Assembly (NCBI RefSeq): GCF_000269605.1
Contig: NZ_AKCI01000001.1
Span: 1-64,000, forward strand
DNA: 64,000 bases
Direction: 5' to 3'
DNA from: Scardovia wiggsiae F0424
GTDB taxonomy: Bacteria; Actinomycetota; Actinomycetes; Actinomycetales; Bifidobacteriaceae
The notes under the pieces are model-generated. The model had not been told where the DNA came from, ran no database searches, and saw only the letters and a program-made list of their open reading frames with translations. The stretch's first letter is position 1, and each line of letters begins with the position of its first letter. Position numbers and translations under genes: made by a program. Of this stretch, positions 16,169-32,376 are shown piece after piece.

Positions 16169-18418
16169 TTAGTGGCTGGCCCTGGGGGAGCGCGAATGCC
16201 GTGCAATCAGAAGGCTCTGGGAATCCGTGAGAGCATTGCCGTTGCTGTCAGCAGAATGTCGGACATAGTCGCCATCAGGCTGCATATGCCACGAATTTGT
16301 GCTTTCTGACATCTGCAGGTCAATGTAGTCGATAAGCTGCTGGATCTGAGTAGCATCAGTGATGCGGACCAGAGCCTCAACACGGCGGTCAAGATTGCGG
16401 TGCATCAGATCTGCCGAACCGATCCATACTTCCGGCCCTGCAGTAGGGCCTTCGCCGATCTGCGGCCCTTGTGAATTGGCGAAAGCAAAAATACGGCTAT
16501 GTTCCAGGAACCGGCCCAGGACTGAATGGACATGGATATTCTCGCTCAGCCCTTTTCTTCCGGGTTTCAGGGCACAGATACCGCGTTCAACGATATCGAT
16601 CTTTACCCCGGCCTGGCTTGCACGGTACAAAGCATCAATGCAGCGTTCATCAACAAGGGAATTGACCTTGATCTTGATCCACGCCTCTTTGCCGCTGCGC
16701 GCCGCCTGCTCCTCGCGCTGGATGCGCTCAATAAGCCCTGAGCGTACTGTACGCGGGGCTACGAGGAGGCGGTGGAAACTGGAATTTGGCGCGTAGCCGG
16801 AAAGCTGGTTGAACAGGCGGGTCATATCCTGCCCGACCACCGGGTCACAGGTCAGCAGGCCCAGGTCAGTGTATAGCCGCGCAGTTTTCGGGTTATAGTT
16901 TCCGGTGCCGATATGGCAGTAACGCCGCAGCCCGTTATCTTCAGAACGGACGACGAGCAGGAGCTTGCTGTGCGTTTTCAGTCCCACGATGCCATAAACT
17001 ACGTGGACACCCGCACGCTCAAGCTTCCGCGCCCACTGGATGTTGGCCTGCTCATCAAAACGGGCCTTGATCTCAACAAGTGCCAGCACCTGTTTGCCCG
17101 CATGTGCTGCATCGATCAGCGCATCAATGATAGGCGAATTGCCGGAGGTACGGTAAAGTGTCTGCTTGATCGCCAGGACCTTTGGGTCGGCGGCGGCCTG
17201 CTCAAGGAATGCCTGCACTGATGTTGAGAACGAATCGTACGGATGGTGGAGAAGGATATCATGCTCGCGAATCGCAGCGAAAATATCCTGCTCATGGCTT
17301 GACTCCACCTCTGCGATCTGCCGGTTAGTCGTAGGGACGAAATTCGGGTATTTCAGATCCGGACGGTCGATATCATGCAGCTCAAAAAGCGCTGTCATAT
17401 CAAGAGGTTCAGGAAGGCGGTAAACTTCATCCTCGGAGACCCGAAGCTGCGATATCAGCAGATGGGACAGCTGGCCTGACATGGCATCGCTCAGCTCAAG
17501 GCGGATCGGGGGGCCGAAACGGCGGCGCAGAAGTTCCCTTTCCATGGCATTAAGGAGGTTCTCCGCGTCGTCCTCCTCCACATCGATATCTTCATTACGG
17601 GTCACGCGGAAAGAATGGGCCTCTTTGATGATCATCCCCGGGAACAGCGCGTCAATATGGGCGAGGACAAGGTCTTCGAGAGGGATGAAACCATGGCGTT
17701 CCCTACCGCTGTCTGAATCGAGGCTGTCAGACAGATCATCAACAGGGTACAGTCGGGGAAGGTTGTCCGGTATTTTGACGCGTGCGAAATGGGTCCGCCC
17801 TGATGTGGCGTTTTCCACGAGGACAGCAAGATTCAGGGATTTGCCCGAGATGTAGGGGAAGGGGTGCGCCGGATCTACGGCAAGTGGTGTCAGTACGGGA
17901 AAGATCAGCCGCCGGTATACCTTGGAAAGGCGTTCCTGCTCGTCAAGGGTCAGATCATTCCATTTCATGATAATGATGTTCTCATCCTTCAAAGCGGGCA
18001 CCAGCTCGTTGCGGAAGCAGGAAGCATGCTCTTCCTGGAGCTTGTGGGCCTGTTCGCTGATCTCATGCAGCTGCCTGCGCGGGCTCATGCCGCTGGCGCT
18101 GGGGACTGCGATACCCGAGTCGATGCGGCGTTTAAGCCCCGCCACACGCACCATAAAGAATTCATCGAGATTGCTGGCAAAGATCGCCTCAAAATTTGTG
18201 CGCTCAAGCAAAGGCAGTGTTGGATCCTGTGCCAGCTGCAAAACACGTTTATTGAATTTCAGCCAGCTGATCTCACGGTCAAAAAACCGGTCTTTGGGCA
18301 GGCTCCTGTACTGCGAAGCCAGAGCAGTATTTTTCTCCGCCTTTTCGATTTCTGCAATATGCTCCGCGATCTGGCTGCGGAGGACTTCTTTACTGGGTCC
18401 CGTAAACTTCTGTGACAT
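16169..18418 (-). CDS. ppk1: Polyphosphate kinase 1
   Basis: 749 residues, the normal length. Reversibly transfers the gamma-phosphate of ATP to long-chain polyphosphate through a phosphohistidine. The N-terminal segment [17 protein letters not shown] (about 49-65), the head domain, and the catalytic block around residue 500 with [18 protein letters not shown] (the His is the expected phosphorylation site region) are intact, as is [10 protein letters not shown] near 395. First gene of a leftward operon with the MutT1-like and hypothetical genes. It is divergent from the M20 dipeptidase, with about 190 bases between for promoters. Confidence 0.95.
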
Positions 18419-18605: not shown

Positions 18606-19982
18606 ATGGCTATGGACCGTGACCGCATCCGGGCTGCCGCTGAGGCCGGCATGGATGATATTATCAGCTTCCTTAACAGGAAAATTGCAATGCGTGCAAT
18701 TTCTGCGCAGGGTGTGGATTCACAGGCTATGAAGGACGACGCGCAGTTCGTTGCCGATGCCATGGAGACTGCAGGCGTAAAGGCGGACGTCGTCCAGTCG
18801 CAGAACCCTGATGGGACCCCGGGCGCATGGGAAGTCATCGGTTCAAAAACTGTTGACCCGTCAGCACCGACCGTCCTGCTTTATGCTCATCATGATGTGC
18901 AGCCTGCGCCTGATGATGACGGTGTGTGGGAGACTGACCCCTTTACCGGTACGGTTAAGGGCGACCGCCTGTATGGCCGGGGATCCTCTGATGACGGCGC
19001 GGGAATTGCTATCCATCTTGGGGCGCTGAAGATCCTTGGCGAAGGGCTCGGCGTGAATGTCAAGCTGTTTATTGAGGGCGAAGAGGAGATGGGATCCAAC
19101 AGTTTTATCCCCTTTGTCAGATCGCATCCTGAAGATTTCGATGCCGACATCATGATCGTTGCTGACTCGGGCAACTGGTCTGACACTGTGCCAAGCCTGA
19201 CGACATCGCTTCGCGGGAATGCTGCAATTGATGTTACGGTAAAAGTGCTTGAGCATCCCCGCCATTCCGGTGTCTTTGGTGGCCCTGTCCTTGATGCCAA
19301 TACTGCTGCAGCACTGCTTATCAGCACTATGTATGGCCCCAGTGGGGAGCTTGCTGTCCCGGGGGTTGAATCGCAGGAAGTAGTTGGCGGGCTGCAGGAA
19401 GATATAGATGAGGCGCAGTGGCGCCAGGATGCTGCCGTGCTGCCGTCCGTGAAACTTGCGGGGACAGGCTCGCTGGCTTCACGTGTATGGGTCAAGCCCA
19501 GCGTGACTGTGATAGGCTTTGATGCCCATCCCGTAGAAGGGTCCTTCAATGTTATGGCCCCCAGCACGCGGTTCCGCCTGTCTATGCGTACGGCACCAAG
19601 CCAGGACCCTGTTGAGGCGCAGAAGGCTTTGGGCCGGTTCCTTGTGGAGCATGCGCCGTTCGGCAGCGAAGTAACATGGGAAGCTGTTGATGCCGGCCAG
19701 GGCTGGGCAATGGATGCAGGATCCGCAGCATGCACGTATGCGCAGCAGGCGCTTGCAGATGCGTTTGAGGCAGAGCCTGTGAACCAGGGGCAGGGCGGGT
19801 CTATCCCCTTCATCCCCGAATTCCTCAGGCTTTTCCCGGAGTGCCAAGTCCTGGTAACGGGGCCGGAGGACCCGCAGTCCAATGCGCACAGCCCCAATGA
19901 ATCACAGTCGATCTCCGCATTAAGGAAGTCTATTATCGCAGAAGTATTTATGCTGCGGGATTTTGCTTCCCTGAATATCTGA
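18606..19982 (+). CDS. M20 family dipeptidase / metallopeptidase
   Basis: A 458-residue zinc-dependent exopeptidase, probably cytoplasmic, hydrolysing dipeptides. Metal and catalytic motifs: YAHHDVQPAP (about 97-106), GRGSSDDGAG (about 123-132) and EGEEEMGS (about 157-164); a later metal His lies in the NAHSPNE text near residue 428. The M20 dimerisation domain sits in the middle. GGAGGAATT immediately precedes the ATG. It appears to be a single gene. Substrate preference cannot be read, though the family members most similar in pattern are annotated as cytosolic dipeptidases. Confidence 0.9.
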   Translation: MAMDRDRIRAAAEAGMDDIISFLNRKIAMRAISAQGVDSQAMKDDAQFVADAMETAGVKADVVQSQNPDGTPGAWEVIGSKTVDPSAPTVLLYAHHDVQPAPDDDGVWETDPFTGTVKGDRLYGRGSSDDGAGIAIHLGALKILGEGLGVNVKLFIEGEEEMGSNSFIPFVRSHPEDFDADIMIVADSGNWSDTVPSLTTSLRGNAAIDVTVKVLEHPRHSGVFGGPVLDANTAAALLISTMYGPSGELAVPGVESQEVVGGLQEDIDEAQWRQDAAVLPSVKLAGTGSLASRVWVKPSVTVIGFDAHPVEGSFNVMAPSTRFRLSMRTAPSQDPVEAQKALGRFLVEHAPFGSEVTWEAVDAGQGWAMDAGSAACTYAQQALADAFEAEPVNQGQGGSIPFIPEFLRLFPECQVLVTGPEDPQSNAHSPNESQSISALRKSIIAEVFMLRDFASLNI

Positions 19983-20032: not shown

Positions 20033-20200
20033 AATAAAAAAAGCCAGCTCCGAAGAGCTGGCTTTACAAGCTAACAATGAGTGGAAATCTCGCACAACAT
20101 CCTCGTCATGGCGGTAAGTCTCATATAATCCGCCCAACCTTTGACCTTATGTGATCTAGCTTTTGTGGGCTTCCACTGTTCTGTTTTGCTTGTACTTTTA
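20033..20200 (-). ncRNA. Candidate structured small RNA with own terminator
   Basis: This AT-rich minus-strand segment has nested long-range pairing: TACAAGC (20194-20188) with GCTTGTA (20071-20065), AGTGGAA (20177-20171) with TTCCACT (20086-20080), then CACAA with TTGTG further in, and an inner GCGG/CCGC hairpin. It ends in a strong intrinsic terminator (AGCCAGCTC/GAGCTGGCT, 20063-20042) followed by eight T on the minus strand. A possible -10, TATGAT (20212-20207), lies just upstream. The rod-like shape recalls 6S-type RNA, but no known family was identified. A short in-frame ORF exists here but lacks a ribosome site. Confidence 0.5.
20034..20063 (-). terminator. Intrinsic terminator, minus-strand orientation
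   Basis: AGCCAGCTC (20042-20050) and GAGCTGGCT (20055-20063) form a 9-bp stem with a CGAA loop on the plus strand, TTCG on the minus. The long T-run is on the minus strand, so it mainly serves leftward transcription although the rightward dipeptidase gene ends just before it. Confidence 0.85.
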
Positions 20201-20367
20201 TTATGCATCATAAAGGTAAAAAAGAAAAATCGAAACACCGAATCTTCACAATTAATTTTGCCTTTTGGCGGAGGGCCTGAGTGTGGAAAACCTGCGGCTT
20301 TCGGCATATTTAACCACACTGGTATGTATGGTTTTGTGCCCGTATAGTTTTCCGGTTCAATAACAGT

Positions 20368-21663
20368 ATGGTCCAGCTGAATCCGGAATACAGGGCAACG
20401 GCACCCGCGGCCTCTTCCGCGGCTTCGCCTATGCCTTCGTCCTCACCCTTAACTGCATCTTCACCTGTATCTTTTCCCGCGCCGCTGAAGATGCCGGCGA
20501 CCAGACAGCAGTTCGCCGGCCCGGATACCGGTGCTGCGGGAAACGGCGGGGCTGCAGGGGGACATGACGATAGGCAGTATTACATGCCCGCATCAGCGCT
20601 GGGCAGGCGGACCCGTGATATGGACCATGCAGCTTCTGCCGGCAGATTCGGCAGGGAAGCATATGACGGAGCCCGTATTTACCTTTTTTCTTCCAGCTCC
20701 GGAGGATGCGGGACGACTGCTACAGCAGCCATGTTTGCATACCATCTTACGCAGGAAGGGCAGCGTGTGGTGCTGCTTGACCTGGATCTCTCCCGGGGCG
20801 GTATGGATATCCTTCTGGGGCTGGAACAGGATGAGGGGCTGCGCTGGTCCGGTATTGATGCCCCGCTTGGCATGATCGACGGACCGGCGCTTATACGGGA
20901 AATGCTGCAGTGGGACGGATGCCCTGTACTCAGCGCTGATACCTGGTGTGCTGCCCCGCATCAATGGTGGGAGATATCTGCCGTTATATCAGCTGTGTGT
21001 ACACAGGCGGATTCAGTCATATGCGACTGCAGCACTAATACCGCTATTATACGGGGGCTTCAAGCTTACTGCGGCGGTACCGGCACATCATCTTCACAGG
21101 CACAGGACTGGCTCCATATCTGGGAGGCAGTAGGCAACAGGAAAAACGTGTCTGTAGTCTTCCTCGCAGAACTGACTGTCTTGGGGCTTATCCGTGCTAA
21201 AACTGCTGTTGACAGGTTTTCTGCGCATACATATGCTTTACAGCCTGATATTATTGGAGTCAGTCCGGGGATCGGGAAAACGGCAAGAAGAGGGATGTTT
21301 TCTGCGGGCAGGACTTCGGGCGTGCGGGGCGCTGTTTCTGTTGAGCAGGCCAGCAGCCTTTTACGGTCTGATGTGCTGGGGCCACTGCACAGGATCAGGA
21401 CGGTAGATATCAGCATACGGGAAGGCAGGGGGATAGAAGATATCCCCGGAGCGTACCGCCCTATTTTTGAGGCACTCTCCAGAAAGACACTGCAGCATTG
21501 GTATCCGGATACCGGCAGCAGGGGTGATTCGGACGGCCATACAGACGGAAGCACTGACGATGATGTGGCCGGCAGCCGATATAGCCCGGATCCTGGTAGT
21601 GTACCCGGCGTGAGTAGAGCTGACGGCAGCGGGTGTAGTCCCGCACAGGGAGGCAGGAAGTAA
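20368..21663 (+). CDS. TadZ/CpaE-like (Ssd-type) P-loop ATPase of the Tad locus
   Basis: 431 residues. A disordered N-terminus of about 95 residues leads to a MinD/ParA-like domain with a deviant Walker A, SSSGGCGTTATAA (about 110-122), lacking the usual GKTT lysine, then VVLLDLDLSRGGMDIL (about 133-148). This is the actinobacterial 'septum site-determining/CpaE' type that positions Tad pilus machines at the cell envelope. The C-terminal 60 residues are low-complexity. It overlaps tadA (TAATG), so it heads the pilus operon. No clear Shine-Dalgarno is seen; TATAGT at 20344 could be a -10. Confidence 0.8.
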   Translation: MVQLNPEYRATAPAASSAASPMPSSSPLTASSPVSFPAPLKMPATRQQFAGPDTGAAGNGGAAGGHDDRQYYMPASALGRRTRDMDHAASAGRFGREAYDGARIYLFSSSSGGCGTTATAAMFAYHLTQEGQRVVLLDLDLSRGGMDILLGLEQDEGLRWSGIDAPLGMIDGPALIREMLQWDGCPVLSADTWCAAPHQWWEISAVISAVCTQADSVICDCSTNTAIIRGLQAYCGGTGTSSSQAQDWLHIWEAVGNRKNVSVVFLAELTVLGLIRAKTAVDRFSAHTYALQPDIIGVSPGIGKTARRGMFSAGRTSGVRGAVSVEQASSLLRSDVLGPLHRIRTVDISIREGRGIEDIPGAYRPIFEALSRKTLQHWYPDTGSRGDSDGHTDGSTDDDVAGSRYSPDPGSVPGVSRADGSGCSPAQGGRK

Positions 21664-30667: not shown

Positions 30668-31780
<1,113 letters not shown>

Positions 31781-31893
31781 TTTCTGTAGTGGGTAAAACT
31801 ACTGTAGGGATTATGGAGTCTATTTTTTGTAGAAAAAAAGCCCCATAAGACCTATAATGAAAAAGTGACCAAACCCTCATTAGAAAGAATCTT

Positions 31894-32376
31894 ATGGAAC
31901 AATTAAATTTTATCACAAACATACTTGGAATGAATGACAAAAATATTATTATCTTAGATTATCTTGATGCTGGAACGCATAAAGAAGTCATTTCTAAGCT
32001 CGATTATCCTGCCTCGCCTGCCTCCGATTTTGCGCAAAATATCAGCGACATTCTGGATGGCAAGGAGCCAAACCTCACTTGGACAGAACAAGGCGTGACG
32101 CTGGGCGTCGTGGTTGCCTCTGAGGGCTACCCTCTAGCTTATGAAAAAGGCGTGGAGCTGCCAGAAAAGACTTCTGGCGACATCATCACCTACTATGCAG
32201 GCGCTAAGTTCGCTGAAAATGGCAAAGCTCTGCTGTCAAATGGCGGCCGTGTCTACATGCTGGTCACCACAGCAGACACTGTCAAAGCAGCCCAGGACAA
32301 AATCTATGCCCAGATCGCCCAACAAAACACAGACGGCCTCTTTTACCGAACCGACATCGGCAGCAAGGCACTATAA
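31894..32376 (+). pseudogene. In-frame chimera: ISL3 transposase N-terminus fused to PurD C-terminus
   Basis: 160-residue open frame. Residues 1 to about 42 (MEQLNFITNILGMNDKNI, then THKEVISKLDY) are the start of an ISL3-family transposase. From about residue 45 (SDFAQNISDIL, then TWTEQGVTLGVVVASEGYP and AKFAENGKALLSNGG) the sequence is the C-terminal part of phosphoribosylamine-glycine ligase of streptococcal type, ending normally FYRTDIGSKAL. The join is around 32005-32025. The PurD piece lacks the ATP-grasp core, so it cannot catalyse. Translation is possible from the IS ribosome site, but a function is unlikely. Confidence 0.8.

Follow-up and report, generated by a model that had tools for sequence, protein, structure and literature searches.

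A conserved structured RNA of Bifidobacteriaceae as a candidate for the family's missing Ms1/6S-type RNA

Three described RNA systems come closest to the RNA analyzed here: 6S RNA, Ms1, and CoRP. 6S RNA has a size range of 150–210 nt (PMC4191392). Ms1 binds the RNA polymerase core and is reported in 824 actinobacterial species, not including Bifidobacterium, where the syntenic gap is too short (PMC9130861); its gene is reported near the origin and transcribed toward it (PMC4191392). Rfam lists Ms1 as RF02566, and the family includes MTS2823 in Mycobacterium tuberculosis and scr3559 in Streptomyces. CoRP, from Corynebacterium, is ~500 nt long and lies among tRNA genes (PMC11077062). Bifidobacterium has been stated to lack both 6S and Ms1, with genome reduction suggested as the cause of the loss (PMC9130861), and a polymerase-binding RNA, still undiscovered, has been predicted in Bifidobacterium bifidum (PMC11077062). 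We describe a bifidobacterial RNA for which no description was found in Rfam release 15 or in the literature searched.

The locus lies in the window, the 64,000-nt stretch of Scardovia wiggsiae F0424 DNA that was analyzed. Its minus strand almost certainly carries a genuine RNA gene at 20195–20034, a structured RNA of ~160 nt delimited by a covariance-model match (20197–20062) together with the terminator. The start (~20195–20193) and the end (~20034, within the terminator T-run) are placed from the predicted promoter and terminator. A sigma70-type −10 box, CATAAT (20200–20205, minus strand), emerged from comparison of upstream regions across homologues: Five of its six positions are matched at 65 of 80 loci, the −35/−10 spacing is 16–17 nt at 75 of 80, and the −35 element is of the TTGNNN type in most homologues and weak in the S. 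wiggsiae window and its own genus. At the 3′ end, a rho-independent terminator hairpin (20040–20065, minus strand) leads into a T-run extending to ~20034. The sequence-only reading had seen here a strong hairpin plus T8; the hairpin is present at 20065–20040, but the run is T7.

The minus strand of this region has a folding energy of −57.2 kcal/mol (z = −5.1), a value that none of 200 dinucleotide shuffles reached. The antisense plus strand folds about equally strongly, so the fold energy of a single sequence cannot pick the strand, and folding energy was rejected as a strand criterion. We assigned the minus strand because the conserved promoter lies on that side and the terminator is found at all 80 homologous loci. 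Farther upstream, a box GTGAAGATT (20241–20249, minus strand), a possible regulator site, recurs at homologous loci, at −51/−52 from the RNA in seven and at −74/−75 in four. A second upstream box, G[AC]ACA[AT], stands at −52 in 22 loci. Both boxes are possible candidate sites for a regulator of the RNA or of tad. The locus is a predicted single-gene transcription unit whose RNA is conserved across Bifidobacteriaceae, in keeping with the earlier proposal of a stand-alone, ~160-nt minus-strand RNA upstream of the Tad operon.

The RNA is laid out, on the minus strand throughout, as helices P1, P1b, and P2, an asymmetric internal loop (GCC / CAGAGA), helix P3, a junction bearing the hairpins P4 and P5, and the terminator. 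The closing helix P1 pairs TACAAGC (20188–20194) with GCTTGTA (20065–20071) and shows two-sided changes at five of seven pairs across 80 homologues. P1b, which pairs AACAG (20181–20185) with TTGTT (20073–20077), lies outside the covariance model; its mean helix score is 10.1, compared with 8.04 (SD 0.28) after swapping 3′ arms among species. P2 joins AGTGGAA (20171–20177) to TTCCACT (20080–20086) and covaries: Pair 34/170, the top covarying column pair on alignment A2, is GC in 40 sequences, AU in 39, and CG in 1, and is paired in 80/80. Hairpin P4 (GATC-ACATAA-GGTC; 20143–20156) has two-sided changes at all four of its pairs. Hairpin P5 (GTT(G)GGCGG ... CCGCC(AT)GAC; 20105–20138), which has a conserved ACTTA before CCG, is paired in 99.6–99.7% and shows two-sided GC-to-AU exchanges.

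P3 stands apart in its conservation. Its 5′ strand CACAA (20163–20167), inside the conserved GCCCACAA motif, pairs with TTGTG (20093–20097); the helix is 99% paired and near-invariant across homologues, and because it hardly varies, covariation neither backs nor contradicts it. P3 is absent from the minimum-energy fold of the window sequence alone, and RNAalifold, run on the first alignment, gave an alternative 3′-strand hairpin, ACAAC/GTTGT, that competes with it; the modeled P3 and this hairpin may both form. Of the three nested pairings named in the sequence-only reading, those now called P1 and P2 are therefore present and vary with compensation across homologous loci, while for the third the complementarity holds and covariation is neutral. 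The refuting condition named in that reading, paired segments that change without compensation, was thereby checked, and the outcome favors the RNA.

On alignment A2 (80 homologues), 92.7% of cells pair, and two-sided changes occur at 17 of 31 pairs. Cells with two-sided changes number 183, compared with 43.5 in shuffles (0/500 shuffles as high). Because A2 was fitted to the covariance model, an independent check was made on a MAFFT-only alignment built without structure, which shows the same P2 and P5 exchanges. Spacers between conserved blocks are mostly 23–29 and 13–18 nt and vary by non-multiples of three; there is no conserved reading frame, as the earlier description of a region free of coding features had held.

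Homologues occur throughout the family. A BLAST-type search gave clear copies in the genus of S. wiggsiae and in several other genera of the family. Covariance model R1, built from 13 homologous sequences, matches 94 of 121 Bifidobacteriaceae genomes (88 of the 100 high-quality ones), with one copy per genome save for one weak, chance-level second match. Across 198 genomes of the order, R1 matches in Bifidobacteriaceae only, and a search by sequence alone in the other families of the order gave chance-level matches only. When 84,980 species were scanned for an exact pattern, 115 records matched; among the matches listed, 80 of 80 are Bifidobacteriaceae, including Bifidobacterium, Gardnerella, Alloscardovia, Pseudoscardovia, and Galliscardovia. 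In several small-genome genera of Bifidobacteriaceae, no copy of the RNA was detected, even under laxer filters, which reflects either loss or strong divergence. Most of these genera also lack tadZ. The genomes of these genera in which no copy was detected are G005, G006, G009–G013, G015, G020, G021, G024, G025, G031, G032, G035, and G036.

The locus has no significant match to any Rfam family, 6S (RF00013) included. RF00013 matched 0 of 61 Bifidobacteriaceae genomes, whereas control genomes did match, and identity with 6S was rejected, the model giving no match at any threshold used. The sequence-only reading had cautiously likened the RNA to the general shape of 6S. As a comparison of shape this stands, since the RNA falls in the 6S size range and has a rod-like closing stem, although it ends in a two-hairpin junction; the layout matches that of Ms1, itself 6S-like and actinobacterial. 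The likeness does not extend to the Rfam 6S model. CoRP, compared by description only, resembles the bifidobacterial RNA in being specific to an actinobacterial lineage that lacks 6S and Ms1. The sRNA list of Bifidobacterium animalis subsp. lactis (PMC4338058) holds no entry whose listed neighbors are ppk and tad. Elsewhere in the window, Rfam Srn266 (Streptococcus RNA 266) matches at 31771–31881 (minus strand) with 88 bits, beside an ORF (31894–32376, plus strand) that encodes just the C-terminal domain of phosphoribosylglycinamide synthetase; this region is AT-rich and is possibly acquired DNA.

In the window, the RNA is convergent with an M20 dipeptidase-like gene (18606–19982, plus strand; Peptidase_M20, 2.1e-24) and divergent from a TadZ/Ssd-like gene (20368–21663, plus strand), the first of the Tad operon, whose best NCBIfam match is TIGR03815 (Ssd) at 67.8 bits, below the cut-off. 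The polyphosphate kinase gene ppk1 occupies 16169–18418 (minus strand; NF003922, 1209.6 bits), and ppk is the usual other neighbor of the RNA in Bifidobacteriaceae. Across the 80-locus context table, the neighbor order is Tad(−) RNA(+) PPK(+) at 30 loci, PPK(−) RNA(+) Tad(+) at 19, PPK only at 17, and Tad only at 14. Tad genes lie upstream on the opposite strand at 42 loci, and at 17 the RNA neighbors ppk while Tad genes are missing within ~4 kb. In genus g13 (Bifidobacterium/Gardnerella, including B. pseudolongum and B. catenulatum), the orientation of the RNA is flipped, so that it is co-directional with and upstream of tad. The distance from the RNA to dnaA is 5–18% of genome length in all 19 genomes computed, with transcription toward dnaA in 11/11 genomes outside g13 and away from it in 8/8 of g13. 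A motif search for an HAD-IB hydrolase found no HAD motif in neighboring ORFs at the 80 loci.

In other Actinomycetes, we located Ms1 after an HAD gene that is divergent from ssd. The bifidobacterial RNA has several Ms1-like traits (single copy, own promoter, an opposite-strand ssd/TadZ neighbor, and a position near the origin), and its divergence from ssd/TadZ and its direction toward the origin match Ms1 outside g13 only. These positional agreements are not mutually independent, as all concern one orthologous site. The topology is common to the RNA and the Rfam Ms1 consensus: nested closing helices, a two-hairpin junction, and an adjacent terminator. A CCCAC motif on the 5′ strand occurs in both Ms1 cores and the bifidobacterial RNA. 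The RNA differs from Ms1 in length (~160 nt vs. ~230–300 nt), in having no extra 5′ domain, and in its surroundings, with ppk–mutT on the other side and no HAD hydrolase neighbor seen.

Covariance models did not join the two RNAs. The Rfam RF02566 model has no match here, and the same model is blank at most Ms1-bearing loci outside mycobacterial relatives, which makes it a narrow criterion. Covariance model R2 gave no significant match to Ms1. One R2 match (E = 2.8) coincides with the Ms1 core at locus L243, on the right strand, and is suggestive only. Model R3, built in this analysis from short Ms1 of Actinomycetales relatives, did not match the bifidobacterial RNA, but this miss is not evidence of difference because mycobacterial Ms1 confirmed by Rfam escapes R3 as well. 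Its best match in bifidobacterial loci (L176, E = 0.018) was set aside, lying 3.3 kb from the RNA and looking like a GC-rich chance match. Direct model proof of homology with Ms1 was thus attempted with R2 and R3 and failed in both directions; homology is not proven by models either way.

Short Ms1 and the bifidobacterial RNA have a complementary distribution: R3 finds short Ms1 in 33 of 159 genomes of the order but in no Bifidobacteriaceae genome, of which at least 12 were sampled. The short Ms1 core runs ACCCACGCG, hairpin, hairpin, GCACGCYTGGTA, and the bifidobacterial RNA runs GCCCACAA, P4, P5, GTTGTG. The likeness follows the same order, with CCCAC, a P4-like hairpin (GTCCAC..GGAC), and a P5-like hairpin (GTCG..CGGG/CCGG..CGAC). 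The conserved GCG/CGC and CCA/TGG pairs of short Ms1 and its GCACGCYTGGTA motif are absent from the bifidobacterial RNA, and the two have different locus neighbors. Among the other Actinobacteria, eight loci (L222, L242, L213, L224, L226, L221, L223, and L220) carry 6C RNA (RF01066) in the ssd–HAD region, and in L222 and L242 the HAD gene is flanked by 6C RNA and Ms1. In L236, after the HAD gene, a second CCCACGC-type element precedes the Ms1 core by ~110 nt, possibly an extended or duplicated form.

We put the probability at roughly 0.65 that this RNA is the missing Ms1/6S-type, RNA-polymerase-associated RNA of Bifidobacteriaceae in a minimal form, a shortened and diverged counterpart of Ms1 and, in function, of 6S. 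The comparative data document the gene, with its structure, conservation, promoter, terminator, and surroundings; we infer the relation to Ms1, the binding of polymerase, and a role tied to growth phase. The RNA probably works like Ms1 and may be its shortened descendant. It is not filed as a member of Ms1 because the models match in neither direction, the HAD neighbor was not seen, and the RNA is shorter. Under the proposed mechanism, the RNA would be transcribed from its sigma70-type promoter, P1, P1b, and P2 would form a rod, and P3 would lead into the junction that carries hairpins P4 and P5. The conserved unpaired GCC and CAGAGA strands would present an open, promoter-like region, and this region could occupy RNA polymerase and so store or moderate it, probably as growth slows.

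Other readings concern what kind of RNA this is. The RNA might be a conserved trans-acting or housekeeping RNA unrelated to RNA polymerase, such as one that regulates by base-pairing or sequesters a protein; nothing in Rfam matches it, the models show no homology to Ms1 or 6S, the conserved unpaired segments GCCCACAA, ACTTA, and GATGTTGTG could bind targets or proteins, and the conserved upstream box suggests regulated expression. Yet the long rod and two-hairpin junction are more in line with an RNA associated with polymerase than with a typical base-pairing sRNA, and the family-wide single copy, the dedicated promoter and terminator, and the Ms1-like location also favor polymerase association, which leaves this reading on the unlikely side. 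A separate class of polymerase-associated RNA, specific to this lineage and different from 6S, Ms1, and CoRP, could instead have arisen or been radically remodeled in Bifidobacteriaceae and assumed the role of those RNAs; we consider this rather improbable.

Readings that dispense with an independent RNA fare far worse. A role in cis, as leader, attenuator, or shared terminator for the Tad operon, the dipeptidase gene, or ppk, would suit the intergenic position and the arrangement in g13. In the window, however, the RNA diverges from tadZ and converges with the dipeptidase gene, and it has its own promoter and, at 80/80 loci, its own terminator. A leader role is strongly disfavored because the RNA stays between ppk and tad, flips orientation in g13, and outlives tad, being kept beside ppk without it; we consider any cis-acting role very improbable. 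The similar folding of both strands and the short ORFs that overlap the region might raise the suspicion that the gap, if AT-rich, holds inverted repeats by chance or coding-sequence remnants, but we give this reading practically no weight. Chance repeats are refuted by the compensated changes seen across 80 homologues and by a sequence pattern confined to Bifidobacteriaceae among the matches listed, and spacer variation by non-multiples of three led us to reject a coding explanation. The preferred reading remains that of a minimal Ms1/6S-type RNA.

With the new covariance model, this RNA, which Rfam release 15 lacks, can be annotated. Synteny searches may have passed it over because the HAD neighbor is gone and the RNA now sits between ppk and tad. 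As an Ms1-shaped RNA occurs family-wide in single copy, in probiotic bifidobacteria as well as in Gardnerella and their relatives, the question of a polymerase-associated RNA becomes directly testable in these organisms, and the Ms1/6S-type RNA missing from bifidobacteria has a concrete candidate.
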